Part shown: piece by piece, positions 22,375-60,978 of the stretch
Position numbering within the stretch: position 1 is the first letter of the stretch
How the letters are laid out: every line of letters starts with the position of its first letter
NCBI GenBank assembly: GCA_017461545.1
Contig: JAFTXP010000001.1
Location: forward strand, 1-61,585
DNA from: Clostridia bacterium
Lineage (GTDB): Bacteria > Bacillota > Clostridia > UBA1212
Direction: 5' to 3'
Length of the DNA: 61,585 nucleotides
Notes under the pieces: generated by a model
What the model was told of the DNA's origin: nothing
Databases searched by the model: none
Seen by the model: only the letters and a program-made list of their open reading frames with translations
Translations under genes and position numbers: made by a program

Positions 22375-22410
22375 AAAAAAGTATTTATGAATATTAAAAG
22401 GCGTGTACAT

Positions 22411-23292
22411 ATGATTGGATTATTTTCTGAAAAGATATATAAAAAATTATTGGTTGCAGTATTCGCAATATTGTTTTTATGTTCCGCGGTTTTTCTTGTT
22501 ATACCTCAGAACGTATCTGCAGCTGTTTCACCTGAGCTGAGCATACAGATTGGTTCGGTGTATTCTGAAACTGCGACTTTAGACAGCGGTGCTCAAGGTA
22601 CGGCGCTTGTATTCCTGGATTGCGGTGATTTCATTTTTAAATCCGGAAGTGTAAAGATAAATATGGACGCTTCATTATTTGCAGATGTTACAGCCAAGAG
22701 TGATACGGAAGTAATAACTAAAACTGACATCGGCGAAGATGTTATTTCTGTCAAATATTCATTTGATTCTACGGAAGGTTTTCACGGAACAGTACAGCTC
22801 GGAACAATTACTTTTAAAGTTAAAGAAACCGCGGTTGCAGCTGTTGATACTGACATAAAGATTTCCGAAGTTAAGTTTATTGACAGTAACGCAAGTACGC
22901 ATACAGATGATTTTAGCATAAAGAATGTTGTATTGACAGTAATAAACGAAAAAATTTCAGGGAATGTTAACCAAAACAGTGCTGTACCGTCTGCTACGTC
23001 GACGCAGCAAGTTTCGACGGAAAATCCTCAATCGACTCCGGCAAACAATTCGACGCAGGTTTCTGCCGCTCCGGCCGTTACAGACAGTACGGAACTTTTG
23101 ACAGATACGGCGATGTATACTTTAGAAGATGTAGAGGATCTGTCCAACGGAGCGATTGTGTTTTGGGGAATTGTGTTTCTTATTATAGGCATATGGATAG
23201 GAATTGCTTTGGGATATTGGTTCTGGTGTAAGAAAAAATCAAAACCGCAGGTAAAAGATACTCACGGCAATGTTATAGGTCATTTAAAATAA
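22411..23292 (+). CDS. Membrane-anchored cohesin-like protein
   Basis: This 293-residue protein has an N-terminal signal (hydrophobic, ending PQNVSAA near residue 38) and a cohesin-like beta-sandwich of about 140 residues, beginning SPELSIQIGSVYSE. A Ser/Thr/Pro/Gln linker follows (about residues 175-230), then a transmembrane helix (IVFWGIVFLIIGIWIGIALGYW) and a short basic cytoplasmic tail. It would display one cohesin-like module on the outer membrane face. ATG 22411 is preferred to 22387 because AAAGGCG lies eight bases before it and the promoter is so close. The gene opens a run of surface proteins. The cohesin call rests on fold-level pattern, so a related beta-sandwich is possible. Confidence 0.65.
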   Translation: MIGLFSEKIYKKLLVAVFAILFLCSAVFLVIPQNVSAAVSPELSIQIGSVYSETATLDSGAQGTALVFLDCGDFIFKSGSVKINMDASLFADVTAKSDTEVITKTDIGEDVISVKYSFDSTEGFHGTVQLGTITFKVKETAVAAVDTDIKISEVKFIDSNASTHTDDFSIKNVVLTVINEKISGNVNQNSAVPSATSTQQVSTENPQSTPANNSTQVSAAPAVTDSTELLTDTAMYTLEDVEDLSNGAIVFWGIVFLIIGIWIGIALGYWFWCKKKSKPQVKDTHGNVIGHLK

Positions 23293-23307
23293 ATCAGGTG
23301 TTTTGCA

Positions 23308-24267
23308 TTGGATAATATTAATAATGAAGAAAAGAATAAAGTTTTGAAAATTACGGCATTAAATACCGTAACAGTAGTTGTGTGCATTCTTTTGGCTCTG
23401 TTTTTTGCACAGTTAGGTAATTCTTTTACCGTACAGACTGTTTTGGCAACAACAGAGTCTGCACTGCCTCAAAGTACGGCGGATCCGAATACAGGCGTGA
23501 GCTCATCGCCTGCCGTGACTGAAACGCCTGCTACTACAGAAGAAGTATCTCTAAGTCCGACTTTGACAGAAGAGAGCGCAACGCCTGAAAATTCTGCTGA
23601 GGCAACCGCTTCGGCGACAGCACCGGGCATTTCTCCGACAGTAAGTTCTTCTGCGCCCGCTACAGAGATACCGTCTCAGTCGGATAATACAGTATTTCCG
23701 GGCAGTACTGCTCAAAATCCTCAGGAGACTCCGACGCAGAATATTCCATCTGAGACAGTGCCGCTGCCAACAGTGCCAACTACAACTGCGCCTTCTACAA
23801 AGGCTCCTTCTGCAACCGCTCCTCTGACACAAACCCCTGTTTCTACCGCTACTGCATCAGCGACAACTTCTGCAAGCATTTTACCTACAGCAACTCCTAA
23901 ACCGACATTGGTAACTCCTTCTCCTACATTGGCAAGAATCGAAGAACCGATGGTTTCGGGAAATTCCGTTATAGATGTAGAAGCTGAGGATTATATATCG
24001 CCGAGTGTTACCGATATTCCTGCAGAACTCAATCCGGATAACCCAATTGATGAAAATGTTCCCGAAGAAACAGGAAGTGCAAGTGATTCGAATAAAACAG
24101 ACAGTAAAGGCAGTATATCTGCTTTGTTTGATATTTTGGTATATGTATTTGTTTTATGTGCAATTATAGCTGCTATATACGGTGTATTTACTATTATAAA
24201 ATTTATAGTTGATAAGAAACGATCAAGGAAAAACAGCAAGAGTAAGAAAAAAGGTAAGAAAAAATGA
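23308..24267 (+). CDS. Two-anchor Ser/Thr/Pro-rich surface protein
   Basis: This 319-residue protein has a membrane segment at residues 20-40, about 200 residues of low-complexity Ser/Thr/Pro/Ala sequence, an acidic stretch (about 215-260) and a second membrane segment (FDILVYVFVLCAIIAAIYG). It ends in a tail very rich in Lys and Arg. The long extended linker between two anchors suggests a loop outside the cell, or a spacer across the wall; I know no named family. The start is TTG 23308 with AGGTG seven bases upstream. It follows the cohesin-like gene by 15 bases and overlaps the phosphoesterase gene by four, so all three are probably co-translated. Confidence 0.65.
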   Translation: MDNINNEEKNKVLKITALNTVTVVVCILLALFFAQLGNSFTVQTVLATTESALPQSTADPNTGVSSSPAVTETPATTEEVSLSPTLTEESATPENSAEATASATAPGISPTVSSSAPATEIPSQSDNTVFPGSTAQNPQETPTQNIPSETVPLPTVPTTTAPSTKAPSATAPLTQTPVSTATASATTSASILPTATPKPTLVTPSPTLARIEEPMVSGNSVIDVEAEDYISPSVTDIPAELNPDNPIDENVPEETGSASDSNKTDSKGSISALFDILVYVFVLCAIIAAIYGVFTIIKFIVDKKRSRKNSKSKKKGKKK

Positions 24268-25166
24268 GTGAACAAGTTGTAAAACTCCTTTTGTCTTTCT
24301 GTTATTTGATAATAATTGCGTTGATTGCAGGCTTTGCGGCATTTGTGATAATGAATCGTCATGCGAAAAAAATAAGGACAGTCTATGTGCGTGCCGATGA
24401 TGCGTTGAAGGAAAGAAAAAAATACGTGAAGCCTGTCAGAATTGCCTTGATTTCTGATTTTCACATACCTAAAATGCCGCCGAGTAAAGATGCGGTAATA
24501 AATTCCATTATTAAAGCCTCACCGGATTTTGTTGTTGTCGCAGGTGATTTGTGTGAAAGTAAGCAATATTGGAACACTGCTGCCGGTTTTATAGGTGAAA
24601 TTGCCGGGGCTTGCGGATGCCGTGTTTTCGTGGTGCTTGGAAATCATGATATAAATGATGCTTGCGAAAAAAATTCCGGGAAGATAAAAGAATACAGAAA
24701 GGTAATCGAAGGAGATAATCCCGATATCATTACACTTGTCGATGAAAAATATCTTTTTTCATGCGCCGGGACAGATAGAAAGCTTCTTTTATGCGGCGTG
24801 AATGATTACAGGCATACAACACCTGATTCCATTAAATCTCTTTGCCGAAAGTGGAACGCAGAGTCGGATGCTTCCGGGGCTGAATTTGTCCTTCTGTCAC
24901 ACAATCCGGATTCAGCTTTGCACATACCTGAAAAATGTTTTCCAACAATAATGCTGAGCGGACATACGCATGCAGGACAGATGTGGATGCCGTTTAATAT
25001 GGAGTTCCGTTTTATGCGAAAGGATGTTTTGCCTAGGGAAGGGTATAAATACGGTTTACATTTATATAAGAATAAATTTCCTATATATATAACAAGCGGT
25101 GTGGGATGTACTTTTCTTCCTATAAGATTTAAGTCAACTGCTGAAGTTGCAATAATCGACATATAA
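24264..25166 (+). CDS. Membrane-tethered metallophosphoesterase (YkuE-like)
   Basis: This 300-residue protein has one N-terminal membrane helix (residues 8-28), then a calcineurin-like phosphoesterase domain. The metal motifs are in order: LISDFHIPK, VVAGDLCES, LGNHDIND, LLSHNPD and SGHTHAGQMW. Related YkuE proteins sit at the Gram-positive envelope, but the substrate is unknown. ATG 24264 overlaps the preceding gene by four bases. Its co-translation with two surface proteins suggests a role in envelope chemistry around them; that is inference. A terminator follows. Confidence 0.88.
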   Translation: MSEQVVKLLLSFCYLIIIALIAGFAAFVIMNRHAKKIRTVYVRADDALKERKKYVKPVRIALISDFHIPKMPPSKDAVINSIIKASPDFVVVAGDLCESKQYWNTAAGFIGEIAGACGCRVFVVLGNHDINDACEKNSGKIKEYRKVIEGDNPDIITLVDEKYLFSCAGTDRKLLLCGVNDYRHTTPDSIKSLCRKWNAESDASGAEFVLLSHNPDSALHIPEKCFPTIMLSGHTHAGQMWMPFNMEFRFMRKDVLPREGYKYGLHLYKNKFPIYITSGVGCTFLPIRFKSTAEVAIIDI

Positions 25167-25211
25167 TAATTTTTTTATATATTAATTTACAAAAAATACT
25201 TCTTTATAACA

Positions 25212-25250
25212 AAAGCCGTCTGATTTCTATTAAAACAGACGGCTTTGTTT
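25212..25250 (+). terminator. Terminator after phosphoesterase gene
   Basis: AAAGCCGTCTG at 25212-25222 pairs with CAGACGGCTTT at 25236-25246 (11 bp) and is followed by GTTTTG. The gap 25167-25509 otherwise holds the next promoter and leader; I see no gene there. Confidence 0.75.
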
Positions 25251-25335
25251 TGTAAACAATAATCAAAAAGGGTAAAACTCTCCGAAATTGCCGCTTTTTT
25301 TCTGAAAAATCAATGAAAATTTTTTATTCGCAATA

Positions 25336-25398
25336 TTGTAAATGCGATAATTAAATGATATAATCGCATAGAGTGTATTATTGTCATTAGAATACACT
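25336..25398 (+). promoter_or_regulatory. Promoter and leader hairpin of the dockerin protein gene
   Basis: TTGTAA at 25336-25341 and TATAAT at 25359-25364 are 17 bases apart. The leader would begin near 25371 and opens with an 8-bp hairpin, AGTGTATT at 25372-25379 with AATACACT at 25391-25398. A 5'-terminal hairpin can stabilise a message, which would fit an abundant surface protein. Confidence 0.6.
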
Positions 25399-25509
25399 GT
25401 GCCTCTGTATAATAAAATTTGGATTTATTACAGCGTTTGGCTTGTTGCTGAATAATGCTGTTTAAATTATAAATGATATTTTTTATACATGAAAAGAGAG
25501 GAGGATTTT

Positions 25510-28500
25510 ATGAAAAATATCAAAACAAGTAAAGTGGTTGCGCTTATACTTTCGATCGCTATGATTTTGAATGTATTTGCAGGATTGTCTTTGACATCTT
25601 TCGCAGCCGATGATATTACTGTAGGTATGTATTTCATGGATCAGAAAGCTGATTATGCTACTCCGTCTACGGTTACTCCGGGACAAGAGTATACAGCTGT
25701 TGTCTATCTTAGAAATTACAATGCCACAAATGCTGCTTCATACCCGATCAGTGGTTTGCAGGTGGATGTGACTGCTGATGCGAACACAACTATCGGTGTT
25801 GTAAACACATTTGAGAAATCAGGTTACCAGATTAATGGCAATACTGAATTTACTTCTAAGAAGACAGGTGACAACGGTGAAACGATCGTAAGCTTCGCTT
25901 CTGTATACGGTGCTCCTGATGCTACTACAGGCGATTTCGTTTACTCGACACTTGCAAGTTCAGACGCGGATATCGAAATTTGTGCATTTGAGTTTACTGT
26001 TAGTGAGACAGCTACAGGCACTATCACATTCCCGATTTCTGTAATTGCTGCTGATTCATCTTTGAGCCAGCACTCTGTTGTTGTAAATAACGGTTCTGTC
26101 GCTGTAGGTGCTGCTAATACAACTGAAAAGCTCAGCTTGTACGGTCCTGACCTCGAAGCTATAAACAGCGCAGGTACTTACAACATCGATGATGCTACAG
26201 CTGCAGACGGCACAGGTTATACTCCGTTCGGTACATCATGGACAGCTGCAGGATTTGCAGAGGGTTCTTCACTTGTAAGAATGGGTTACAACAACTTCGT
26301 ATATTTGGGAAGCTATGACTTTACAAATGTTACAAAGATTGAGATCACCTATCACACTGATAAAGATTTTGTAGCTGCAAACAGCCTCTTGGATGGTGCA
26401 ACAGCTACACTCGGTCTCAGCAAAGTTGCTCAGTCTTTCGGTTGGGCTGAGACTACAGCACCTCATTTTGAAAATGCAGTTGCATACGGTGCTTTGTCAG
26501 ACGGAACAACTAACGGTTGGCCGGAAGCAAGAACTGTGACTATCACAGAGGGTATTGATACCACTTACAACGGTGATGTATGGCTTACTTCTTATAGCTG
26601 TAACGGCGGAATTATCGTTGCTACAGATGTAACATTGTATCGTTCAGCTGAAACAACTGATCCGGAGCCTGACACTGTTGGTTTCCAGACAACTGTTGAC
26701 AATATTTTTGTTGACGGTGTAGATGTTAATACAACAGGCGGTATTGGCGGTACAGAAAAATTTGTTTGGTCGAATTATAATCATCTTCCTGAGCTGATTG
26801 CGAAAGAGTCTTTTAGCATTGCTGGTTGGTGTACTACAACTAATGGTATTGAAAAATATCAATATTCTGTAAACAACGGTGAGTGGAAAGATGCTTCATG
26901 CACAATTTACGCAAGAACAGACCTTACAGAAAATAATTATCCATATCCGAACGGACATGCTACTGCAGGTTTTACAGATCTTACTATTCCGTATGCAGAA
27001 CTTACACAAGACTATGACAATACTGTTGATATCAGAATCGTTGATCTTGCGGGTAATGAAATAGAACTTTTCCAGTTTACAATTGATACTGCTGAACCGG
27101 CATTCACAGCATTCCATGCTTCTGTTGATATAATTGTTACAGATGGTACAGAGTCCAGTGCTCTTGGCGGCACTGCTATAGGTGCCCCTTATGCTTATAC
27201 AGAGACAGCTACGATATCCGAAAGTTTTGGATTTAACGGTTGGTGTGCTACAGAAGCAGGTATGGCAGGATATAAGTACTCAATTGACGGTGGCGCTACT
27301 TATGCCGATATTTCCAATGTGACTATTTCTTCAAGAACAGAACTTGTTGATCATAGTGTTCCTTATGAGACAGGTCACTCTACTGCAGGTTATAGCTTTA
27401 CAATTCCTGCTTCAGCTCTTGAGGTTGGTTCAAACAATGTTATAATCAGAGGTGTTGACCTCGCTGGCAACGAATTCGACCTTATTACAGCTACAGTTGT
27501 TGTAGAAGAAGTTGTTACTCCTACTTACACAGTTTCAGTAGGTACAGTATCTAACGGTACAGTTACTGTAAGTCCTTCAGGTACAGTTGACGAAGGTACA
27601 ACAGTTACAGTTACAGCTACAGCTGCTACAGGATATGAGCTCAGCGAGATCCTCGTAAACGGCACAGCTATCACAGGTACAACATTCACAGTTACAGCTG
27701 ACTCAGTTGTTACTGCTACATTCACAAAGATTCAGTACACAGTTTCAGTAGGCACAGTATCTAACGGTTCGCTTACACTCAACCCGACAGGTACAGTTGA
27801 CTACGGTACAACAGTTACTGTTGTAGCTACAGCTACTACAGGATACGCGCTCAGCGAGATCCTCGTAAACGGCACAGCTATCGAAGGTACAACATTCACA
27901 GTTACAGCTGATTCAGTTGTTACTGCTACATTTACAAAGATTCAGTACACAGTATCAGTAGGTACAGTATCTAACGGTACAGTTACACTCAGTGCAACAG
28001 GTGCTGTTGACTACGGTACAACTATCACTGTTACAGCTACCGCTAACGAAGGATATGAGCTTAGCGAGATCCTCGTAAACGGCACAGCTATCACAGGTAC
28101 AACATTCACAGTAACAGCTGATTCTGAAGTTACTGCTACATTTACAGAGACAGTTGTAGAGACTGAGGAATATACAATCACATTTACCGTTGGCGGAAGA
28201 GGACAGGGTACTGTAAGCGCGAACGGAACAACTGAATCCAGAACATATGGTCAGGCTACAGCTCAGACATTTACTGTTAAAGTTGCAGCAGGCGAGACTG
28301 TAAATGTTGCTACAGCTTCACAGCCGTTTGTAAGGTCATCAAAGAACTATGCTTCTATCTGCACATTGATAGAATCTTCTGATGTTACTTTGTCTTGCTC
28401 TAATGTTTCTAAGACAGGTGAGTATACCGGCGCTACATTTACAATGCCTGAGTCTGATGTTGCTATCACTGTAAATATTCGCGTTTTTGGCGATTTGAAT

Positions 28501-28707
28501 TACGATGGTAATATTAACGTTATGGATATCAATGCAATAAAGAAGCATATAAGCTCTGCTACTGTATTAACAGGTGAAAAGCTTATTGTTGCAAATGCAG
28601 TAGGTAACTATACAGGTGCTAAAGCTACTGTAAACGTTATGGACCTCAATGGCGTAAAAGCATTTATAGGTAAGGGTACACTCTTAGCTAATGGTGTTTA
28701 TGCGTGA
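25510..28707 (+). CDS. Secreted cohesin-like and dockerin protein
   Basis: This 1065-residue secreted protein has a signal peptide ending near residue 31 (SLTSFAADD) and a cohesin-like domain at 34-203. A beta-sandwich resembling a carbohydrate-binding module follows (about 207-384), then two homologous repeats of about 135 residues (390-527 and 534-667), three 70-residue repeats of the InlB-B/bacterial-repeat kind (672-881), another beta domain, and a type I dockerin from about 992. The first dockerin loop, GDLNYDGNINVMD, is canonical; the second, GNYTGAKATVNVMD, lacks the usual calcium ligands. No catalytic domain is seen. It can both be bound and possibly bind, so I read it as an adaptor scaffold. 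ATG 25510 follows GAGGAGG. Confidence 0.8.
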   Translation: MKNIKTSKVVALILSIAMILNVFAGLSLTSFAADDITVGMYFMDQKADYATPSTVTPGQEYTAVVYLRNYNATNAASYPISGLQVDVTADANTTIGVVNTFEKSGYQINGNTEFTSKKTGDNGETIVSFASVYGAPDATTGDFVYSTLASSDADIEICAFEFTVSETATGTITFPISVIAADSSLSQHSVVVNNGSVAVGAANTTEKLSLYGPDLEAINSAGTYNIDDATAADGTGYTPFGTSWTAAGFAEGSSLVRMGYNNFVYLGSYDFTNVTKIEITYHTDKDFVAANSLLDGATATLGLSKVAQSFGWAETTAPHFENAVAYGALSDGTTNGWPEARTVTITEGIDTTYNGDVWLTSYSCNGGIIVATDVTLYRSAETTDPEPDTVGFQTTVDNIFVDGVDVNTTGGIGGTEKFVWSNYNHLPELIAKESFSIAGWCTTTNGIEKYQYSVNNGEWKDASCTIYARTDLTENNYPYPNGHATAGFTDLTIPYAELTQDYDNTVDIRIVDLAGNEIELFQFTIDTAEPAFTAFHASVDIIVTDGTESSALGGTAIGAPYAYTETATISESFGFNGWCATEAGMAGYKYSIDGGATYADISNVTISSRTELVDHSVPYETGHSTAGYSFTIPASALEVGSNNVIIRGVDLAGNEFDLITATVVVEEVVTPTYTVSVGTVSNGTVTVSPSGTVDEGTTVTVTATAATGYELSEILVNGTAITGTTFTVTADSVVTATFTKIQYTVSVGTVSNGSLTLNPTGTVDYGTTVTVVATATTGYALSEILVNGTAIEGTTFTVTADSVVTATFTKIQYTVSVGTVSNGTVTLSATGAVDYGTTITVTATANEGYELSEILVNGTAITGTTFTVTADSEVTATFTETVVETEEYTITFTVGGRGQGTVSANGTTESRTYGQATAQTFTVKVAAGETVNVATASQPFVRSSKNYASICTLIESSDVTLSCSNVSKTGEYTGATFTMPESDVAITVNIRVFGDLNYDGNINVMDINAIKKHISSATVLTGEKLIVANAVGNYTGAKATVNVMDLNGVKAFIGKGTLLANGVYA
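27526..28155 (+). repeat. Three 210-bp coding repeats
   Basis: Copies start at 27526, 27736 and 27946 (TACACAGT...TCAGTAGG). Each encodes about 70 residues of the form TVSVGTVSNG...VTATF. They are highly similar at the DNA level, pointing to tandem duplication within the gene. Confidence 0.9.
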
Positions 28708-28728
28708 TGATTTGATTAACAGATGCGG

Positions 28729-28748
28729 CTGGCTTGTACAAGCCGGCC
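28729..28748 (+). promoter_or_regulatory. Intergenic palindrome between scaffold genes
   Basis: GGCTTGT at 28731-28737 is followed at once by ACAAGCC, and the stem extends outward by further pairs. There is no T-run. In a 67-base gap between two genes probably on one transcript it may be a processing or mRNA-stability hairpin. Confidence 0.45.
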
Positions 28749-28774
28749 GGGTCTTGTAGAAAGGAATTATATCT

Positions 28775-31700
28775 ATGAAAAAGATTAAATCGATAATTTC
28801 GATTCTTTTGGCATTGTCATTGGTATTTTGCAGTGTTGTTTTCCCTGCAAGTGCAGCTGATGGTGCAATGATTGAAATTACAAGTGCTGAAGGTAAGCCG
28901 GGTGAAACTGTTGAGATTTTCATATCAAACAAGAATGTTCCTGTAAACCACACAATGTGGCAGTTGAATTTCACTTATCCTACAGTTCTCGGTGAAGGTA
29001 CAGTTACCGAATTGCACAATGTAACATGGGAAGATAAGAACATAGCTTGTGAAAACGGTTATTTCTCTCTTCTTTACTATACAACAGATTCTACACAGGG
29101 CGATATTAACGGTCAGGTAGCAAAAGTCGCATTTACAATTCCTGCAGATGCTACAGTTGGAACTGTATATGATTTGACACCTGCCGTAATTGGTGAGGAA
29201 GTTCTTATTTGTGATGCAGAGTACAACTTGCTCGACATCACTTGCCCCGCAGCAACTATCACTGTTGTTGGTGAGGATACTTCTGATGATGGTGCAATGA
29301 TTGAGATTTCAAGTGCTGAAGGTGCTCCGGGCGAGACAGTTGAGATCTTCATATCAAACAAGAATGTTCCTGTAAACCACACAATGTGGCAGTTGAATTT
29401 CACTTATCCTACAGTTCTCGGTGAAGGTACAGTTACCGAATTGCACAATGTAACATGGGAAGATAAGAACATAGCTTGTGAAAATGGTTATTTCTCTCTT
29501 CTTTACTATACAACAGATTCTACACAGGGCGATATTAACGGTCAGGTAGCAAAAGTTGCATTTACAATTCCTGCAGATGCTACAGCTGGAACTGTATATG
29601 ATTTGACACCTGCCGTAATTGGTGAGGAAGTTCTTATTTGTGATGCAGAGTACAACTTGCTCGACATCACTTGTCCCGCAGCTACTATCACTGTTACAGG
29701 CACAGTTGCTCCTACAACATACGGCGTAACAGTTAACAACGGTACAGCTGATGTTACTGAAGCTCCTGAGGGCGCTACTGTAACAATCACAGCTAATGCT
29801 GCTGCTACAGGTATGGTATTCAAAAACTGGACAGTTGTAAGCGGCGGCGTAACACTCGCAAGCACAACTTCTGCAACAACAACATTCACAATGGGTACAG
29901 CTGCTGTTGAAGTTACAGCTAACTACGAGGCTATGGCTGTTGATGTATACGTAACAGACGGTTCTTACACAGGTACAGCTGCTTACGGTGAGACAATCAC
30001 TATCACAGCTGACACTGCTGCTACAGGTTATGAGTTTGATAAGTGGGTAGTTACTTCAGGTTCTGTAACTCTTGCAGACGAGACAGCTGCTACAACAACA
30101 TTCACAATGGGTACAGAGGGTGTTGCTGTTCAGGCTACTTACAAGAAGATCAACTACACAGTTTCTATCTGCCCCGATATCACAGGCGGAACTATCACAG
30201 CAGTTCCTACAACAGCTACTTACGGTGATACAGTTACTGTTACATTGACTCCTGATTCAGGAAAGAAGCTTTCTAAGCTTTACTACACAATTGACGGCGA
30301 TACAACTGAGTACGCTATCAATGCAACTCTTAAGACATTCACAATGCCTGCTGCTAACGTAGAAGTTCACGCTGAGTTTGCTGATATCACAGGTATTATT
30401 ATCACAGGCGACTACCGCGGTGAGGCAGGCGACCTTATCTACACAGGTGATACAAACGTTGAAGTAACTCTTACTGTATCTAACAATTCAGATGCATTTG
30501 CAGGTATAACATTTACTCTCGACATTGAAGACGGTCTTACAACAGCTACTCCTGTATTCACACCTGCTTCTGGTCTTGAGATCCTCGCTCAGAACGGCAA
30601 CACATACACAGTATGGTCTGCTTATGCTGATGACGATCTTTTAAATGACACATTCCTTCTCGGTACTGTAACTATTCCTACAGTAACAGCTTTGTCTTCT
30701 GCAAACGATGCTCAGTACAAAGTATCTCTTACAGTTGATGATTACATGATCTCTAACGGAACAGCTGACGCTGTAAATGTAGATATTGTTGACGGTACAG
30801 TATTCGTATCTAAGACTGTTGAAGCTATCAAGTTCTATGATGCTTCTAATGGCTATGCTGAGTTCACAACTATCGAGGTTGACGAGACAGTTGAGGACAA
30901 AGATGGTTATGTTGCTGATTACATTAATGCAAATGTTGTTTATGAGTTGGTTTATACAGACGGAACAACAAGCGATACGTACAAAGAAGCTACAGCTGAT
31001 ATGTTTGCTGATTTGACAACTGATGTAACAGACGATATGGTAGGCGGCCAGCAGGCTACTATCACAGGTTCTTATACACAGGAAGATACAAACACAACTG
31101 TAATAGCTGATGTTGTAGTAACTATCGCTCTCAACGAGACAATCGTTGGTATTACAGTTACACCTGATACTCTCTACTTCAAGGTCGGCGATACATTCGC
31201 TTGGGGTGATACACAGTATACACTCACACAGGCTAATGACGGCACAGTAGGACCTAATGCAGTTGCTGCAGGCGTTCAGGCAGGTACTCTTACAGATGAC
31301 TCTGCTGCTCTTGATAACACAGTTACAACAGCTCAGACTGTAACAGTTACTTATGCTGCTGACACAACAGTTACAGATACAGTTACTGTATACTTCGTAG
31401 CTCCTGAAATTATTGGTTATGCTTCTTCCGGAGTTTACTACGAGGAAGGCGCAACATTTGATATCAATGCTCAGGATATCGAAATTGAAGTAAGCTACAA
31501 CGAAGAAGTAACAGGCATCGCTGATGATGTTATTACAACAGGCTTTACTGTTGTTACTCCTCCTTCATTGACACTTGCTGACGGCGCTATCGCTGCTACT
31601 CAGGATCTTGTTATTTCTTATAACGGAAGTGCTGACTACACAATCGAAGCTGCGGCTATAGTTGTTGACTTCGCTGAGTTCGGTAAGGTTCTCGTAGGAA

Positions 31701-31810
31701 GCCTTACAGCTGACGACACAGTTACAACTCTCTTGAAGCTCTCTAACTACGGCACAGATCTTGTTACAACTGACCTTATCGCAGTTCGTAACATCGCTAT
31801 CAGAGCGTAA
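28775..31810 (+). CDS. Secreted multi-cohesin scaffold protein
   Basis: This 1011-residue protein has a signal peptide (cleavage near VFPASAA, residue 27) and two almost identical cohesin-like domains (about 29-165 and 172-308). Bacterial-repeat modules follow (about 312-530), then a third, divergent cohesin-like domain (about 539-678) and Ig-like domains to the C-terminus. It has no transmembrane anchor and no canonical dockerin. The last 45 residues show two helix-like VTTLLKLSNY and VTTDLIAVRNIAI segments that recall a dockerin stripped of its calcium loops. It would offer three docking sites to dockerin-bearing partners, one of which may be the neighbouring 25510 product. AAAGGA precedes ATG 28775. 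Codon use is strikingly uniform (ACA, GCT, GTT). Cohesin assignment is by pattern. Confidence 0.72.
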   Translation: MKKIKSIISILLALSLVFCSVVFPASAADGAMIEITSAEGKPGETVEIFISNKNVPVNHTMWQLNFTYPTVLGEGTVTELHNVTWEDKNIACENGYFSLLYYTTDSTQGDINGQVAKVAFTIPADATVGTVYDLTPAVIGEEVLICDAEYNLLDITCPAATITVVGEDTSDDGAMIEISSAEGAPGETVEIFISNKNVPVNHTMWQLNFTYPTVLGEGTVTELHNVTWEDKNIACENGYFSLLYYTTDSTQGDINGQVAKVAFTIPADATAGTVYDLTPAVIGEEVLICDAEYNLLDITCPAATITVTGTVAPTTYGVTVNNGTADVTEAPEGATVTITANAAATGMVFKNWTVVSGGVTLASTTSATTTFTMGTAAVEVTANYEAMAVDVYVTDGSYTGTAAYGETITITADTAATGYEFDKWVVTSGSVTLADETAATTTFTMGTEGVAVQATYKKINYTVSICPDITGGTITAVPTTATYGDTVTVTLTPDSGKKLSKLYYTIDGDTTEYAINATLKTFTMPAANVEVHAEFADITGIIITGDYRGEAGDLIYTGDTNVEVTLTVSNNSDAFAGITFTLDIEDGLTTATPVFTPASGLEILAQNGNTYTVWSAYADDDLLNDTFLLGTVTIPTVTALSSANDAQYKVSLTVDDYMISNGTADAVNVDIVDGTVFVSKTVEAIKFYDASNGYAEFTTIEVDETVEDKDGYVADYINANVVYELVYTDGTTSDTYKEATADMFADLTTDVTDDMVGGQQATITGSYTQEDTNTTVIADVVVTIALNETIVGITVTPDTLYFKVGDTFAWGDTQYTLTQANDGTVGPNAVAAGVQAGTLTDDSAALDNTVTTAQTVTVTYAADTTVTDTVTVYFVAPEIIGYASSGVYYEEGATFDINAQDIEIEVSYNEEVTGIADDVITTGFTVVTPPSLTLADGAIAATQDLVISYNGSADYTIEAAAIVVDFAEFGKVLVGSLTADDTVTTLLKLSNYGTDLVTTDLIAVRNIAIRA
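28859..29716 (+). repeat. 429-bp tandem duplication of a cohesin module
   Basis: The copies start at 28859 and 29288 (GATGGTGCAATGATTGA). From the shared CATATCAAACAAGAATGT onward I count about five differences in roughly 345 bases. The period is 143 codons, in frame. Confidence 0.92.
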
Positions 31811-31841
31811 TAATCAGTAATTGATTAAATTCTGAATAAAG

Positions 31842-31879
31842 TTATCCCCCGGCGGCCGCAAGGCCGCCGGCAAGGATAA
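31842..31879 (+). terminator. GC-rich hairpin after scaffold gene
   Basis: CCGGCGGCC at 31849-31857 pairs with 31862-31870 around a GCAA-type tetraloop, extended by TTATCC/GGATAA outside. There is no clear T-run. A second, AT-rich dyad lies at 31901-31941. Together they could end or protect the upstream message. Confidence 0.55.
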
Positions 31880-32002
31880 TTTAAAATCAAAAATATACAA
31901 TTAATTAAAAATATTAAAACCAATTTGGTATTTTTAATTAATTGGATATTAGTATTATTTCTGATTAAGTATAGATACTATCTTTGAAAGGTGGTTTAGT
32001 CG

Positions 32003-33658
32003 TTGAAGAAAAAGATATGTGGAAAAATTAAATACATGTCGTTGATTTTGGCGCTTACTGTTTTTGTGATGGGATTTTCGATGTTCACAGTTACGGGCGA
32101 CACAACTCCTAATATTTATGGAGGAGATGTTACTACTACACCAGGCAGTGTTGTTATGCTTCCCTTATCGATAAAAAATAATACCGGTGTTGCAGCGTTC
32201 ACGTTGGAGTTGTCATATGACAAGGATACTTTGGAATTTGTAAATGCCGCATCGTCTGAAGAAACTGATTTTTATTGGGATGAATGGTTGATTGAATCTT
32301 ACGGCGACTGTTTCCTTTGGTCAAATGATACTTTGCCTGACAGAGACCGTACTCCGTACAATACAGAGGGCGACGGTAAGATGTTTAATCTTGCTTTTGC
32401 TGTTGCGGCAGATGCACAGCCCGGTGTCTATCCTGTTGAAATTCAACTCAAGGATAACAACGCTGCAAATATTTCAGATTGCAACGGCGTTCCGATAGAT
32501 GTAACCTTTACAGCAGGTGTAATCAGAATTGAGGACACTTCCGGAGAGAAGACCGTAAAGAATGTTACTCTTTATGCTCCCGCGGATAAGCTTACTTATT
32601 GGACAGGCGAAACATTTGAAATAGACGGCGCACAGCTCAAAGTTGAGTGGTCAAACGGAGATATTGATTATATTGATGTTACAGAGAGTATGCTTGAAGC
32701 AATTCCGGATACAGACACAGCAGGTACAAAGACTGTTCAGATAAAGTATCAGAATTGGGAATATGTAAATGACCTTACTTTTGATATTACGGTAAGCGAT
32801 CCTGCAGTTGATAATGTAACATTGTTTACCCCGGCAGATAAGCTTACTTATTGGACAGGTGAAACATTTGAAATAGACGGCGCACAGCTCAAAGTTGAGT
32901 GGTCAAACGGAGATATTGATTATTTAGATGTTACGGAGAGTATGCTCGAAGCAATTCCGGATACTGACACAGCAGGTACAAAGACTGTTCAGGTAATATA
33001 TCAGGGTTGGGAAGATGTAAATGATCTCACATTTGATATCATTGTAAATGCTGCTGAAATTGATAATGTAACATTGTTCACACCGGCAGATAAGCTTACT
33101 TATTGGACAGGCGAGACATTTGAAATAGACGGCGCACAGCTCAAAGTTGAGTGGTCAGACGGCGATATAACTTATATAGATGTTACGGAGAGTATGCTCG
33201 AAGCAATTCCGGATACTGACACAGCAGGTACAAAGACTGTTCAGGTAATATATCAGGGTTGGGAAGATGTAAATGATCTCACTTTTGATATCGAGGTAAA
33301 AGCACCCTCTGCTGTAAGAGCAGAAATGAATCCTGCTCCTTCTCAGAAAGTGTTTAATCAGGGCGATGAATTTAATTCAGACGGCGGTAAAATTAAAATC
33401 GAATACGATAACGGTGAAATAGTTTATATTGACATCACAGAAGATATGTGCAGCGGTTACGATATGAATGTTCCGGGTGAATATGAGATAACCGTTTCAT
33501 ACGGGGAATTTGAATTCTCCTATGTTATCAGGGTTAATGCTGTTGAAAACCCTTCCAGCGGAGATTTCAATTTGATGCTTCCGTTTATAGCATTAATTAT
33601 GTCTGCGGCGGTTGTTTGTGTTTCGATTTATCTGAGAAAGAAAAAGTCATATAATTGA
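32003..33658 (+). CDS. Surface-anchored cohesin protein with Ig-like repeats
   Basis: This 551-residue protein has a signal peptide (residues 1-32) and a clear cohesin-like domain (34-180; GGDVTTTPGSVVMLPLSIKN). Three nearly identical 84-residue Ig-like repeats follow (from about 187), then a fourth, divergent repeat, a hydrophobic helix (FIALIMSAAVVCVSIYL) and the tail RKKKSYN. NPSSGD at residues 516-521, just before the helix, resembles the NPxTGD sorting signals of clostridial proteins with Ser in place of Thr. It may therefore be sortase-attached or simply membrane-anchored. It could tether a scaffold to the cell. The start is TTG 32003, with AAAGGTGG upstream. Confidence 0.78.
   Translation: MKKKICGKIKYMSLILALTVFVMGFSMFTVTGDTTPNIYGGDVTTTPGSVVMLPLSIKNNTGVAAFTLELSYDKDTLEFVNAASSEETDFYWDEWLIESYGDCFLWSNDTLPDRDRTPYNTEGDGKMFNLAFAVAADAQPGVYPVEIQLKDNNAANISDCNGVPIDVTFTAGVIRIEDTSGEKTVKNVTLYAPADKLTYWTGETFEIDGAQLKVEWSNGDIDYIDVTESMLEAIPDTDTAGTKTVQIKYQNWEYVNDLTFDITVSDPAVDNVTLFTPADKLTYWTGETFEIDGAQLKVEWSNGDIDYLDVTESMLEAIPDTDTAGTKTVQVIYQGWEDVNDLTFDIIVNAAEIDNVTLFTPADKLTYWTGETFEIDGAQLKVEWSDGDITYIDVTESMLEAIPDTDTAGTKTVQVIYQGWEDVNDLTFDIEVKAPSAVRAEMNPAPSQKVFNQGDEFNSDGGKIKIEYDNGEIVYIDITEDMCSGYDMNVPGEYEITVSYGEFEFSYVIRVNAVENPSSGDFNLMLPFIALIMSAAVVCVSIYLRKKKSYN
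32561..33316 (+). repeat. Three 252-bp coding repeats (Ig-like domains)
   Basis: The shared AATGT(A/T)AC start recurs at 32561, 32813 and 33065. Copies two and three are nearly identical, for example AAGCTTACTTATTGGACAGG in each. This indicates recent in-frame expansion. Confidence 0.9.
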
Positions 33659-33681: not shown

Positions 33682-33717
33682 CCCGAACGGACAATCTGTT
33701 TGTTCGGGTTTTATTTT
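33682..33717 (+). terminator. Terminator after anchored cohesin gene
   Basis: CCCGAAC at 33682-33688 pairs with GTTCGGG at 33702-33708, followed directly by TTTTATTTT. Confidence 0.85.
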
Positions 33718-34358: not shown

Positions 34359-34406
34359 TTGATTTCATGATGTTTGTATTTTGTCAGGGTTAAGGAGAAC
34401 CGGAAG

Positions 34407-35192
34407 ATGCCTGCTGATGACAGAAATAAAGATACAATTGAATACAAAACAAAAAAACAAAAAATAATTGCGTTTTCTTTATTTTCAATGATTTTTGTAT
34501 GCTTGGGTGTGTTTGTAACCGTACAGGCACGTACTGCGATAAAAAATGTCGAGAAGGAGAAGCAGGAAGAACAGGCCACTTTGAAAAGTTATGAAGATTC
34601 CATCAAGTCACTTGAGGAAGATATTGCTGTTTTATCGGGTGAAATATCCGAAATGGATGCTGAGTATGATGAAAAGATGGAGCAGCTGGCTTCGAGTGAT
34701 AACGATTTCTTCAGAATTCTGGAATTCTATAATGATTCAATAGCAAAATACGGTTTTTACGCAGGTACTACTGATGTGACAGGTAAAGGCATTGAAATTT
34801 CTATCGATGACGGAAATCCTACAAGCGGTACGGTTTCAAATTTCTTACTTGTGCATGATACGACGTTGCTCAATATAGTCAATGAACTCCGTGCTTCGGG
34901 TGCTCAGGCGGTTTCAGTAAACGGCGAACGTATTGTGGCTGATACAGAGATCCTCTGTGTCGGAACAGGAATAAGGGTAAACGGCAAAAAAATTTTTGCT
35001 CCGTTTTCTATTAAGGCAATCGGTAATTCTGACAGGCTGTATTCGACATTTATAAACAGTGCTGTATATAAGAATATAATTACAGCCGATTTGTTGGTGT
35101 CTGTAATTGAATCTGATTCAGTTAATATTGCAGGGTATACCGGATTTTCTGCGGAGAATGTTAAATATTTATATGATTCTGCTGAAGAATAA
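34407..35192 (+). CDS. DUF881 family membrane protein (first of two)
   Basis: This 261-residue protein has one N-terminal membrane helix (about residues 20-40), a coiled-coil stretch rich in Glu and Lys (about 45-90) and a DUF881 domain with LRASGAQAVSVNGERIV and FAPFSIKAIGN. The family is common in Firmicutes and Actinobacteria, and its role is unsettled. ATG 34407 is chosen because AAGGAG at 34392-34397 fits; an in-frame upstream start has no such site. A paralogue follows 15 bases downstream, and the two probably form a pair. Confidence 0.85.
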   Translation: MPADDRNKDTIEYKTKKQKIIAFSLFSMIFVCLGVFVTVQARTAIKNVEKEKQEEQATLKSYEDSIKSLEEDIAVLSGEISEMDAEYDEKMEQLASSDNDFFRILEFYNDSIAKYGFYAGTTDVTGKGIEISIDDGNPTSGTVSNFLLVHDTTLLNIVNELRASGAQAVSVNGERIVADTEILCVGTGIRVNGKKIFAPFSIKAIGNSDRLYSTFINSAVYKNIITADLLVSVIESDSVNIAGYTGFSAENVKYLYDSAEE

Positions 35193-35207
35193 TTGGAGAT
35201 GTATTGT

Positions 35208-35978
35208 ATGGATGATGAAGAATTGTTAAAGGAAAAACTGATAAAGAAAAAAGTCTTGAAGGCTAAAGTCGTTCGTAATATTGCTCTGACAGTGATATGT
35301 ATTGCGCTCGGTGTAATTGTTTCTTTCGAGTATAAAAGCATCGTACAGCAAAAAGAGAATGAGCAGAAATCTGCTTCTACGCTGACAGAAGCTCAGGACA
35401 GAATAATTGAACTCAGTGCCGAAGCTGAAGCGTTAAGGCAGTCTAAAGAAGAAGCTGAAAAAAAACTTGAAATCTTGGATAACGGTACTAATGAGGAAAA
35501 AATCGAAAAACTTCAGGAGGAAAATGATCTCCTTAAAAAATTTGCAGGACTTACCGATGTATACGGTCAGGGCATTGTAATAACTTTGAATTATGCTGAT
35601 GCAAACGATGTATCTGTTTCCATCAGTGCCTCGCTTATACAGTCATTGATAAATGAATTGAAAGCCTCGTCGGCGCAGGCGATTTCAATAAACGGCGAGC
35701 GTGTTCTGGCTATGACCGAGGTCCGAGCCGTAAACAATTATCTTGCTGTAAACGGTATTTCTCTTTATGCGCCGTATACTATTTCAGTTATAGGAAGCCC
35801 GACCAGCCTTGAAAGTTCTTTGGGCGTAAGTATTAAGCCGAAATTTGACAGTTTCTTTTCTACATACGGCGGCTCTTTTGAAGTAAAGTATGAAAACAAT
35901 ATTCAAATTTCCGGATACAGCGAGGAACTGGTAGAGAATAAGACTAATATGATGTTTGATGTTAAAAAGAGTAATTGA
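35208..35978 (+). CDS. DUF881 family membrane protein (second of two)
   Basis: This 256-residue protein has the same plan as its upstream neighbour: a membrane helix near residues 22-40, a long coiled coil (about 45-100) and a DUF881 domain with LKASSAQAISINGERVL and YAPYTISVIGSP. The two share the motif but are diverged, so the duplication is old. ATG 35208 has GGAG at 35194-35197. Both would hang outside the membrane from short cytoplasmic tails, and I infer that they form a heteromer. The gene is followed by two remarkable hairpins. Confidence 0.85.
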   Translation: MDDEELLKEKLIKKKVLKAKVVRNIALTVICIALGVIVSFEYKSIVQQKENEQKSASTLTEAQDRIIELSAEAEALRQSKEEAEKKLEILDNGTNEEKIEKLQEENDLLKKFAGLTDVYGQGIVITLNYADANDVSVSISASLIQSLINELKASSAQAISINGERVLAMTEVRAVNNYLAVNGISLYAPYTISVIGSPTSLESSLGVSIKPKFDSFFSTYGGSFEVKYENNIQISGYSEELVENKTNMMFDVKKSN

Positions 35979-36006
35979 TCAGTAACATATAGTAATATAA
36001 GGGTTT

Positions 36007-36096
36007 TACAGCAGAGCTGCCCGCTTCATGCGGGCAGCTCTGCTGTATATAGCGAAAGGGAACGCCGATGTTTTTTACAGCGGCGTTCCCTTTCGC
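36007..36096. repeat. Two back-to-back perfect hairpins
   Basis: The first, 36007-36024 with 36030-36047, is an 18-bp perfect stem with loop TTCAT. The second, 36052-36067 with 36081-36096, is a 16-bp perfect stem. Neither is followed by a T-run on either strand. They separate the DUF881 pair from the pdaA-like gene and may terminate transcription or be a mobile hairpin element. Confidence 0.85.
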
Positions 36097-36174
36097 GTCA
36101 TAATTTGTACATCTGTCCCATATTCATAAATAAGATAATAAAAATTCAGAATGAAATGAGAGGTTGTTGACGAT

Positions 36175-37056
36175 ATGAAGGTGATTAAATTAAAGATAAG
36201 CAAGTGGCTTTATGCAGTGGTTCCGATGCTGCTTGTGCTGACATTGCTCGCTTATCCTGTTTTTATGAGTGCAGAAAATTCCGGCAGCGCAAACGGCAGT
36301 GTTATTGATGAGGTGTCAGGAGGAATGGTTTCGGCATCGGACAAAGTTTCTTCTGTTTCGGCAAAGTATGCATGGGGCATAAAAAGAGGCAGTAACGGAA
36401 GCTTGCCCGAGGTCGGTTCAAAGGAATCCGCTTTGCTTGAGCAGTACGGCGGCTGTTATCTGGGCAAAGAGGGCGAAAAAAAGGTGTATCTGACGTTTGA
36501 TGAGGGATACGAGAACGGATATACCGGACAAATCCTTGATACGCTCCAAAAAACGGGTGTTAAAGCAATTTTCTTTGTGACGGGAGATTACTACGATAGA
36601 AGCAATGGTTTGGTCGCCAGAATGGTAAATGAAGGCCATGAGGTCGGAAACCATACAGAGGGACATTACTCACTTCCGACATTGAGCAGTGACAAAATTA
36701 AAACGGAGTTTGAAACACTTGAAAATAAATTTTACGAGCAATTCAATCAGCATATGAAGTTTATGCGGCCGCCCATGGGCGAGTTTGACGAAAAGTCTTT
36801 ACAGGTTTCCGCGGAAATGGGTTACACGTGCGTGATGTGGAGCTTTGCTTATAAGGACTGGATTGCGGATAAGCCCAGCGGCGCCGATTATGCTCACAAG
36901 ATGGTAATGGATAATCTTCACGACGGTGCGATACTTCTGCTGCACGCAGTGTCGCCTGATAATGCCGAGGCTCTTGAACAGATAATAACTGACGTGCAGG
37001 CGGCGGGGTATACCTTCGGAGACCCAAATGACCTTATAGGCGTCAGTACGAATTGA
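36175..37056 (+). CDS. pdaA: Polysaccharide deacetylase, PdaA-like (spore cortex)
   Basis: This 293-residue NodB-domain enzyme is expected to remove N-acetyl groups from muramic acid, leading to muramic delta-lactam in spore cortex. It has an N-terminal signal or anchor (about residues 11-30), then WGIKRGSNGSLPEVG, the catalytic motif LTFDEGYENGYTG, the metal motif HEVGNHTEGHYS and RPPMGEFDEKSL. These fit PdaA more closely than generic chitooligosaccharide deacetylases. It precedes yqfC and yqfD, which are also sporulation genes. The start is ATG 36175 with an AGAGGTTG site upstream. The exact cell-wall substrate is inferred from family. Confidence 0.88.
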   Translation: MKVIKLKISKWLYAVVPMLLVLTLLAYPVFMSAENSGSANGSVIDEVSGGMVSASDKVSSVSAKYAWGIKRGSNGSLPEVGSKESALLEQYGGCYLGKEGEKKVYLTFDEGYENGYTGQILDTLQKTGVKAIFFVTGDYYDRSNGLVARMVNEGHEVGNHTEGHYSLPTLSSDKIKTEFETLENKFYEQFNQHMKFMRPPMGEFDEKSLQVSAEMGYTCVMWSFAYKDWIADKPSGADYAHKMVMDNLHDGAILLLHAVSPDNAEALEQIITDVQAAGYTFGDPNDLIGVSTN

Positions 37057-55607: not shown

Positions 55608-55832
55608 ATGGCCAATAAAGAGAGAGCGGTAAAAAAAGTTTTTATTACACATGAGAAGGGCGGAAAATCTTATAATGTAAAGCCCGACGAAGAAGGCGGG
55701 TGCTGTTGCAATGATGCCGCTTTTTCACGGGAACTGTGCGATGATTTTGAGCGTATCAGATACTGTGTTCCGTTTAACTGTGTAAATTGTGAGTACAGGA
55801 CGGAGTGTACTTATGTTTATGAGTTGTTCTGA
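55608..55832 (+). CDS. Small Cys-rich protein before recombinase
   Basis: This 74-residue protein has eight Cys, in a CCC run and in the C-terminal pattern CVPFNCVNCEYRTEC, suggesting bound zinc or a metal cluster. It has no similarity I recognise. It overlaps the serine recombinase start by 20 bases in another frame, which argues for translational coupling and a related role, such as a recombination directionality or DNA-binding factor. That is inference. The ribosome site is weak (AAGCGG). An AT-rich stretch with probable promoter character precedes it. Confidence 0.55.
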   Translation: MANKERAVKKVFITHEKGGKSYNVKPDEEGGCCCNDAAFSRELCDDFERIRYCVPFNCVNCEYRTECTYVYELF

Positions 55833-57624
55833 TATTTCTGTAGGTCAAGATGCATCTGAGCGGCAGCCCTCCATACGGAGGTCATCTGCGCCGTTGTTGT
55901 CTGACAGTCAGCCCTTAGAGCTGCAAACGGCTTATGCCGCACTATATGTGCGTCTCAGCCGAGATGAAAACGGGGAAAAATCCGACAGCATAGAGACGCA
56001 AAAAAATCTTTTAATGTCATTTTCCAAAGAAATGTACCCTCAGAAACCTGTAAAGATATACATAGATGACAATGTTTCCGGAGTGATTTTTGACCGTCCT
56101 GCGTTAAACCGGCTGAGGGCGGATGCAAAACACGGAATTGCTGATATTTTAATATTAAAGGACCTCTCGCGTCTCGGCAGAAGTAATGCAAAGACTCTGC
56201 TTTTTATTGAGGAGATAGAGCTGCTCGGAGTGCGGATTGTCACAACGGACGGCAGATATGACAGCGAAAAAAATTTTGAACTTGCCGGAATTGACAGCTG
56301 GTTTAACGAGCGGTATGTCATGGATATCTCCAGGAAAATCCGCAGCAACATAAAGCAAAAAATTGAATCAGGTCAATATATCGGCACCGCCCCATACGGT
56401 TACCGCAAAAAAGTTGACTGCCTGAATGTCCTCGAACCTGACCCCGAAACTGCTCCGATTGTGCGTCGGATTTTTGACTTATACATTAACGGCTACGGTT
56501 ACAAGAAGATTGCCGGTATTCTTGACTCAGACGGAATTTTGCCGCCTGCTCCGTCTCGTAGTAAGTTCCTCTGCTGGAATCCTGTTACAGTCAAGAGGAT
56601 TCTTTCCAACCGTGTATATGTCGGCACTACTGTTCAGGGCATAAGCCGCAAAATAAGTTTTAAAAGCAAAAAAACGTGCCGTCTGCCATCTGATATGTGG
56701 CATGTCACAGACGGCACGCACGAGCCGCTGATTCCCGCCGCCGTGTTTGAACAGGCGGCGGGAATCAGGGAGAGCCGCCGGCGTGCCGGCGGCTCTCCCT
56801 CCGAATCATGCCGCGCCGGAAGCGGGGTTTGTGCCTCCTTGCCGTATCGGTTTACATCGTCAAAAACTCCGCTTCCGGTCAATGTCTTCCGCGGCATCAT
56901 TCGGTGCGGCTACTGCGGCGGGCCCATGATCCAACGTCTGAGCCAAGGTCGCCCCGCCGCATACATCTGCGCCCGATACGCAAAACACGGCGCAGGTGCT
57001 TGCCGCCGAAATGGGATACACCGTGACTTTCTGCTGAAAACAGTATCGTCTGATTTGCTGAAAATTTTGAAGGAGCAAAGCGACATAGCAGCAGATGATA
57101 ATTCAAGGACAAATTCAGTGACAGAGAAAATGATTAAAAGAGATCAGCCGGCCGGTGAAATTGACCGGATTTCGGAAGTACATCCCATATGTGAAGATAT
57201 TCATCAGGCTGAGATCATTAAACGAAAGCAGGAGAGTGTATATAATGACTTCCTTGAAGGAAGAATATCTGAGGATCTGTTTGACAGAATGAACAAGATA
57301 TTTGAGCAGAAATTATCCGGCGGTGTATCGGCATCCGGCAATGGTATAAGTGCACGGAACGATGAATTGAAGTGCGGCGTAAACTCTTGCGGAAAAGACA
57401 GCTTTGCTGTCGGGAAGATATTGGAGCATATGGTAAGATTGACTGAGATAATTGCCGATTGCGGATTTGACGGTTTTGAGGAGTTTTTTTCCGGCGGATT
57501 TTACTGCGAATCACTTGATTCGTTTAATCAAAAAATGTTTGCATGTATGGTTGGAATCGGAGTATGTGAAGTTAAAGTTTTTGACGATGAAGCAATCATT
57601 TCTTACCGATATAAACCCGGGTGA
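55813..57624 (+). CDS. Large serine recombinase
   Basis: This 603-residue site-specific recombinase has a resolvase domain with catalytic S49 in YVRLSRDENGEKSDS, then LKDLSRLGRSN and the family-typical YDSEKNFELAGIDSWFNE. The recombinase domain (GTAPYGYRK...) follows, then a zinc ribbon (CGYCGG and, downstream, CARYAKHGAGAC) and a C-terminal region. Start ATG 55813 has CGGAG at 55801-55805; an in-frame GTG at 55789 is less likely. Large serine recombinases integrate phages or excise elements, but no other element genes are seen nearby. Codons for roughly residues 288-395 are very GC-rich and hold a chain of perfect inverted repeats. The frame is intact. Confidence 0.92.
   Translation: MFMSCSDISVGQDASERQPSIRRSSAPLLSDSQPLELQTAYAALYVRLSRDENGEKSDSIETQKNLLMSFSKEMYPQKPVKIYIDDNVSGVIFDRPALNRLRADAKHGIADILILKDLSRLGRSNAKTLLFIEEIELLGVRIVTTDGRYDSEKNFELAGIDSWFNERYVMDISRKIRSNIKQKIESGQYIGTAPYGYRKKVDCLNVLEPDPETAPIVRRIFDLYINGYGYKKIAGILDSDGILPPAPSRSKFLCWNPVTVKRILSNRVYVGTTVQGISRKISFKSKKTCRLPSDMWHVTDGTHEPLIPAAVFEQAAGIRESRRRAGGSPSESCRAGSGVCASLPYRFTSSKTPLPVNVFRGIIRCGYCGGPMIQRLSQGRPAAYICARYAKHGAGACRRNGIHRDFLLKTVSSDLLKILKEQSDIAADDNSRTNSVTEKMIKRDQPAGEIDRISEVHPICEDIHQAEIIKRKQESVYNDFLEGRISEDLFDRMNKIFEQKLSGGVSASGNGISARNDELKCGVNSCGKDSFAVGKILEHMVRLTEIIADCGFDGFEEFFSGGFYCESLDSFNQKMFACMVGIGVCEVKVFDDEAIISYRYKPG
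56675..56995. repeat. Chain of six inverted repeats inside recombinase gene
   Basis: The stems are: 56675-56685/56708-56718 (11 bp, CGTGCCGTCTG); 56728-56742/56754-56768 (15 bp, CTGATTCCCGCCGCC); 56768-56782/56785-56799 (15 bp, 2-base loop); 56803-56815/56890-56902 (12 of 13), enclosing 56816-56825/56869-56878 (10 bp); 56914-56922/56953-56961 (9 bp); and 56967-56973/56989-56995 (7 bp). Adjacent stems touch or nearly touch. Confidence 0.88.
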
Positions 57625-57676
57625 AATTTTTTTGAAAAATATTGTAAAAAAAGTGCAAATTTTTTAAATTCCCATC

Positions 57677-57705
57677 TTTAAAAATAAAATAAAATGTTAT
57701 ATAAT
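57677..57705 (+). promoter_or_regulatory. Probable guaA promoter
   Basis: TATAAT at 57700-57705 has TTTAAA 17 bases upstream at 57677-57682. The leader to ATG 57738 is too short for a purine riboswitch. Confidence 0.45.
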
Positions 57706-57737
57706 ACTGCAATAAATTTTTTAAGGGGTGTGCATTA

Positions 57738-58718: not shown

Positions 58719-58860
58719 TTTTGAAGGTTGAAAAAAGCCCATAAGTATAAGGTTTTTGAAATTTCAAAATACAAATTGATAGACAAATGATAGCAGGTTG
58801 ACAGAATTCTTTATTCTGAAGAGTTCAAATGGTTAGCAAGTAAACTATCTTAAATGTAGA
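58700..58860. other. Candidate attachment-site region at guaA 3' end
   Basis: The guaA end (GATTGAGTGGGAATAA) is a known target of island integrases, and integrase genes begin shortly downstream. Just after it are a 16-base perfect palindrome TTTTGAAATTTCAAAA (58754-58769) and a CAGAAT/ATTCTG dyad (58802-58818), possible protein-binding arms. The matching right attachment site would be outside this window. Confidence 0.45.
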
Positions 58861-58898: not shown

Positions 58899-58931
58899 TA
58901 TTATGCAAATTTTTATAAACGGAGGTGGTAA

Positions 58932-60977: not shown

Positions 60978-60978
60978 A

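Follow-up and report, generated by a model that had tools for sequence, protein, structure and literature searches.

A cohesin/dockerin scaffold locus in a gut Clostridia bacterium, probably the framework of a non-cellulolytic surface complex

Three adjacent genes at positions 25510-33658 of a contig from an uncultured gut bacterium (Clostridia bacterium; GTDB lineage Bacteria; Bacillota; Clostridia; UBA1212) encode proteins built from cohesins, a dockerin and immunoglobulin-type (Ig) repeats, and are, as judged from their modules, a real cohesin/dockerin scaffold locus. The window, that is, the whole stretch of 61,585 nucleotides analysed, is contig C27 of the organism's own metagenome-assembled genome (MAG; here G000), which totals 1.37 Mb and is 69% complete. 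It was compared with the two closest named relatives found: Oscillospiraceae bacterium SIG423 (G001; same genus, 95% complete) and, from the caecum of a water deer, Clostridia bacterium RGIG8523 (G002; same family). Outside the window, G000 was covered by stretches around profile matches. A sequence-only reading had grouped four cohesin-carrying proteins, named here by their start positions (22411, 25510, 28775 and 32003), into one enzyme-free locus. All four open reading frames exist, each with a signal peptide, and as that reading had stated, none is fused to a catalytic domain. The grouping stands for 25510, 28775 and 32003; 22411 also carries a cohesin, recognised by orthology, but it belongs to a separate operon. 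In a wider sample cohesins occur in 37 of 58 genomes and dockerins in 39 of 58. Their mere presence is therefore ordinary, and the points of interest are the layout of the genes and the nature of the cargo.

The scaffold genes and their neighbours

The cohesin profile (15 rows, from G000, G001 and G002) matches solved cohesins, the best being 5lxv (6.5e-14), and the 44-row dockerin profile matches solved dockerins in the Protein Data Bank (PDB). The matches of the lineage dockerin hidden Markov model (HMM) include its own seeds, and its independent support comes from the Pfam and PDB matches. The features of the locus are collected in Table 1.

Table 1. Coordinates of the features discussed (window positions unless a locus handle is given; TM, transmembrane; P/T, proline/threonine)
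Feature	Position	Strand	Description
25510, cohesin...dockerin protein, adaptor candidate	25510..28707	+	cohesin 25609-26112, Ig-like and InlB-B repeats, X-like domain, dockerin
Dockerin of 25510	28477..28671	+	first calcium loop intact (DLNYDGNINVMD), second degenerate with insertion
Candidate promoter	25336..25364	+	TTGTAA-17-TATAAT, extended -10; upstream of 25510; consensus match only
28775, scaffoldin	28775..31810	+	cohesins 28859-29272 and 29288-29701, InlB-B repeats, beta domain 30377-30814, Ig-like region, conserved tail 31658-31807
Claimed third cohesin of 28775	30377..30814	+	beta-sandwich-like domain, weak matches only
Conserved C-terminal tail of 28775	31658..31807	+	faint, unproven likeness to second half of local dockerins
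32003, cell-surface anchor	32003..33658	+	cohesin 32105-32536, four Big_3 repeats, NPSSGD + TM + RKKK tail
Terminator-like hairpin	33683..33712	+	after anchor gene
DUF881 pair and polysaccharide deacetylase	34374-37056		wall-type genes downstream of scaffold locus; DUF881-like pair in both relatives, deacetylase in G001
22411, membrane-anchored divergent cohesin	22411..23292	+	module 22519-22950, P/T-rich linker, C-terminal TM helix; first gene of three-gene operon
P/T-rich TM protein (23308) and TM metallophosphoesterase (24264)	23308..25166	+	Metallophos 9.6e-14
Terminator-like stem	25213..25252	+	10 bp and T-rich tail, between 22411 operon and scaffold genes
Autolysin-dockerin/cohesin-TM pair loci	L020:6161-10019 (G000:C14); L109; L131; L195, L198, L202, L204, L208-L210

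The scaffoldin 28775 has two Pfam cohesins above the cut-off (5.5e-12) and a Flg_new_2 match (2.3e-27). The two cohesins differ at only 18 of 414 nucleotides, mostly at the module edges, which indicates a recent duplication or conversion. Orthologues in the relatives are 71% and 36% identical. In the tree the scaffoldin cohesins cluster by species (G000 pair 100/99, G002 pair 100/99), whereas the anchor cohesins, those of 32003 and its orthologues, cluster across species (98/97), which suggests that carrier cohesins turn over fast while the anchor cohesin is conserved. Against the G001 locus (L066 versus 28775-31810), the carrier cohesins of these congeneric species are almost unrelated and the remainder is 71-78% identical, a pattern that suggests module replacement. 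Three cohesin-like domains had been ascribed to 28775; two of them hold, and the third is not confirmed. It scores 2.4 bits with the cohesin HMM and 18% in hhalign, and its AlphaFold2 model is unreliable (predicted local distance difference test, pLDDT, 54; predicted template modelling score, pTM, 0.36), with 2w1n as the best Foldseek match at E 0.0099 and none at E <= 0.001. The tail reaches 0.4% against dockerins in hhalign, and 7.5 bits with the dockerin HMM for the G002 orthologue only. Pfam finds no carbohydrate-binding module (CBM) in 28775 or 32003, with the unassigned domain at 30377-30814 leaving this uncertain for 28775.

The anchor 32003 was described correctly as a cohesin on an Ig-repeat stalk: its cohesin lies above the Pfam cut-off (1.6e-7) and is followed by the four Big_3 repeats and a TM tail. 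Across the three species the tails read NPSSGD, NPPSGD or VPPTGD, then TM and KKK, and resemble sortase sorting signals; sortases are encoded in G000. Scaffoldin and anchor genes are adjacent in G000, G001 and G002. The downstream order (lipoprotein, two DUF881 genes, deacetylase) is kept in G001, and in G002 the pair is kept with DUF881-type genes.

As had been proposed, the protein 25510 combines a cohesin-like module, here N-terminal, with a dockerin, which lies at the C-terminus. The dockerin is under the Pfam cut-off (8.9e-4) and scores 3.5e-16 with the lineage HMM, which includes this dockerin itself. The N-terminal domain is 34% identical to the cohesin of a G002 protein (L130:4065-5411) that has the same order of cohesin, InlB-B, X-like domain and dockerin and a Pfam cohesin match near the cut-off, and the tree joins the two domains with support of 96/92. 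The 25510 domain itself falls under the Pfam cohesin cut-off, and its single sequence gave 10% in hhalign. The top Foldseek matches of a single-sequence model (pLDDT 58) are cohesins, with pilin Ig domains scoring similarly, so that this low-confidence model counts as weak support. By homology, then, the domain is most likely a divergent cohesin, which would have the nine-strand jelly-roll fold. An X-like domain with a dockerin is also found on a NAGPA protein and on one other protein of G002. The contigs of G001 and G002 stop just upstream of, or within, the scaffoldin gene, and the linkage of 25510 to the scaffoldin is thus known from the window alone. The candidate promoter in front of 25510 is weak, since 45 consensus sites were found against 41 expected by chance.

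The operon that begins with 22411 is set apart from the scaffold genes by the stem and T-rich tail listed in Table 1. A Pfam scan of 22411 gave no match; five orthologues score above the Pfam cohesin cut-off (PF00963) and 22411 itself below it. Compared with cohesin profiles in hhalign, the family reaches 96-97.5%, versus 0.2-2.3% for control domains. By orthology with this order-wide TM protein family, 22411 is a divergent cohesin. Its three-gene module (22387-25166; L032-L049) is kept across the order, and the same trio occurs in relatives without the scaffold. This occurrence, the terminator and a 322-bp gap led to the rejection of 22411 as a member of the scaffold operon. A dockerin gene lies directly upstream of the module in several relatives (five detected, a sixth placed by neighbouring coordinates); in the window it is missing, and a trmB-like gene on the opposite strand stands there. 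In some genomes the extracellular domain of the module is not cohesin-like. Near the end of the window, a serine recombinase and a phage-type integrase (55789-61314) suggest a mobile-element boundary.

Dockerin cargo and the autolysin gene pairs

Of the dockerin proteins detected by the lineage HMM, 12 belong to G000, with all but 25510 encoded outside the window (11); G001 has 25 and G002 has 8. Most have a hydrophobic, signal-peptide-like N-terminus. A type I dockerin (PF00404) is marked by two calcium-binding, F-hand-like repeats. In most G000 and G001 dockerins the first calcium loop is intact and the second degenerate; a permissive ligand count finds the second intact in 3/12, 11/25 and 5/8 of the dockerins of G000, G001 and G002, respectively. 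One class (L027, L115, L121, L126), with an intact first loop and a degenerate second half of consensus ...INILDVMAILNxI, possibly consists of single-calcium dockerins. The 25510 dockerin is unlike those of the cargo.

Recognised domains on the cargo of G000 and G001 are Amidase_3 with SH3, transglutaminase, tyrosine phosphatase, metallophosphoesterase, GDSL esterase, leucine-rich repeats (LRR) and SH3, together with a sub-threshold match to a C39-like peptidase; G002 adds NAGPA. A transglutaminase-dockerin region is present on two G000 contigs (L023 on C5, L024 on C11), through either duplication or an assembly artefact. Several cargo proteins at first without annotation proved to be SagB/Acp/AtlE-like N-acetylglucosaminidases (2.4e-10, 2.8e-10 and 2.7e-12). 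Their scores lie far below the curated NCBIfam SagB cut-off, yet they are significant, and the family profile matches autolysins in the PDB at 5e-13.

The sequence-only reading had likened the locus to cellulosomes and amylosomes, and for the cargo this likeness failed. No dockerin protein of G000 or G001 has a recognisable plant-polysaccharide hydrolase domain, in a search that did not include GH48, one of the glycoside hydrolase (GH) families. No mucin GH was found by Pfam or NCBIfam on those scanned in the two genomes, where unannotated domains remain, and no dockerin-bearing amylase is among the recognised cargo. GH9 is absent from G000, G001, G002, G008 and G013, versus 16 copies in a cellulosome-type control genome (G054) with 37 cohesins. 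All such statements are annotation-based, apply to recognised domains and concern incomplete MAGs. The GH36, GH13 and GH3 enzymes near the locus are dockerin-free by Pfam and look intracellular, the GH13 also having no signal peptide; they were rightly set aside as cargo.

All seven members of the glucosaminidase family found in G000 and G001 carry a dockerin, as do 11 of 18 glucosaminidase genes fetched from relatives, some of the others being cut at contig ends. A cohesin gene adjoins the glucosaminidase gene in eight cases among relatives, and likewise in G000, G001 and G002. The order-wide arrangement is a glucosaminidase (autolysin)-dockerin gene, often with SH3, followed by a cohesin-TM gene. 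In the literature searched, no cohesin system directed at autolysins or peptidoglycan came up.

A probable envelope-associated surface complex and its alternatives

Taken together, the three genes at 25510-33658 probably supply the framework, itself non-catalytic, of a surface complex that resembles a cellulosome but is not cellulolytic. The anchor 32003 would be fixed to the wall through its sorting-signal-like tail and present one cohesin on its Ig stalk. The tandem cohesins of 28775, the carrier, would take up secreted dockerin proteins, and 25510 may serve as adaptor. The cargo would be secreted dockerin proteins from genes elsewhere, about a dozen or more in number, the recognisable ones acting on peptidoglycan, proteins, esters and phosphoesters. 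Most likely, such a complex would keep surface proteins and wall-associated hydrolases attached to the cell envelope. The grounds for this reading are the annotation of the cargo and the autolysin-dockerin/cohesin-TM pair that recurs across the order; the DUF881 pair and the polysaccharide deacetylase next to the locus strengthen it circumstantially. The division into adaptor, carrier and anchor with cargo elsewhere is that of the earlier reading, supported now by the 11 further dockerin proteins of G000 and by the carrier/anchor order in two relatives, though without 22411. Of the outcomes that were to refute that reading, neither was observed: the modules did not turn out to be unrelated Ig domains, and G000 has many other dockerins. 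More tentatively, a cohesin-dockerin system specialised for the bacterial envelope can be envisaged, in which peptidoglycan hydrolases and other wall proteins sit on wall- or membrane-anchored cohesins and the three window genes form a multi-subunit scaffold.

Several observations weigh against this model. Neither HMM nor hhalign detects a dockerin on 28775 that would bring it to the surface. The scaffoldin cohesins of G000 and G001 are only ~20% identical, against 78% over the C-terminal half, while the same cargo dockerin class is common to both; the G001 scaffoldin gene runs off the end of its contig, so that matching cohesins may be missing. Finally, one G002 dockerin protein is GH5-like, and many cargo proteins without a recognisable catalytic domain could hide carbohydrate enzymes.

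Cohesin-dockerin pairs build surface complexes, and scaffoldins and sortase anchors are among the usual components (PMC2930009, PMC12997984). One close parallel is the ScaA/B/C/E cellulosome of Ruminococcus flavefaciens: it too has cohesin scaffoldins and X-dockerin proteins, its single-cohesin protein ScaE is anchored by sortase, and some of its dockerin proteins have transglutaminase, peptidase or LRR domains (PMC2930009, PMC3573020). Its many non-CAZyme dockerin proteins, that is, those that are not carbohydrate-active enzymes, have been an open puzzle for which cell-surface structuring has been proposed (PMC2930009). Unlike that system with its many dockerin GHs, the genus studied here has no recognised plant-polysaccharide GH cargo, its scaffold proteins have no recognised CBM, and glucosaminidases and amidases are prominent. 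Of the defining parts of a cellulosome, a multi-cohesin scaffoldin (28775) and a wall-anchoring scaffoldin (32003) were found, and dockerin-bearing cellulases or plant GHs were not recognised in G000 and G001. The amylosome of Ruminococcus bromii is likewise a small gut cohesin/dockerin surface system (PMC9112005), but its cargo is starch-active, whereas the starch/glycogen enzymes near our locus have no dockerins. The mucinolysome of Limousia, also from a gut Clostridia lineage, likewise has multi-cohesin scaffoldins, a scaffoldin anchored by sortase and peptidases that bear dockerins; it differs in that 12 to 22 of its dockerin proteins are CAZymes, with mucin GHs (PMC12997984), none of which are recognised here. 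In Clostridium perfringens, enzyme/toxin pairs use cohesin and dockerin pairwise in a non-cellulosomal way, but the cohesins are fused to GHs (PMC12997984) and not placed on dedicated scaffold or membrane proteins as they are here.

The three scaffold proteins might not be mutual partners, each cohesin having its own separate dockerin ligand as in the cohesin-TM/dockerin gene pairs of the order. Such one-to-one pairs do recur, the 25510 dockerin differs from those of the cargo, and the scaffold genes are separated by gaps of 67 and 192 bp containing stem-like sequence. We nevertheless consider this rather unlikely, given that scaffoldin and anchor are neighbours in three genomes and that the G002 homologue of 25510, which lies at the end of its contig, is oriented in a way that fits this gene order.

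The abundance of both cohesins and dockerins in the same genomes speaks against an unlikely second alternative, in which the modules are cohesin-fold adhesin or stalk domains that have lost dockerin binding and the genes serve as surface adhesins or wall matrix. It is true that all three proteins are made up largely of InlB-B, Big_3 and Ig repeats, that the central domains of 25510 recur in dockerin-free surface proteins with membrane-anchor tails (L160:7073-9844 and L161), and that cohesin-like folds are known from non-dockerin contexts. But near-identical tandem cohesins are typical of scaffoldins, and the repeated adjacency of cohesin and dockerin genes in relatives implies working pairs. 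A classical glycan-degrading system, related to the cellulosome, amylosome or mucinolysome and with CAZyme cargo missed through MAG incompleteness and unannotated domains, would suit the gut lineage, the typical scaffoldin/anchor layout and the GH5-like protein of G002, but it is quite improbable, as none of the 25 dockerin proteins of the nearly complete G001 has a plant- or mucin-type GH by Pfam or NCBIfam, GH9 is absent and the scaffold proteins bear no recognised CBM.

To our knowledge, cohesin-dockerin assembly is known almost entirely for polysaccharide digestion. In the lineage described here, the recognisable cargo is without plant-glycan hydrolases, and an autolysin-dockerin gene is paired repeatedly with a membrane cohesin across the order. 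If the envelope model is true, an order of gut Clostridia would be applying the cellulosome toolkit to work on the cell wall, either its own or that of other bacteria, and not to food glycans.

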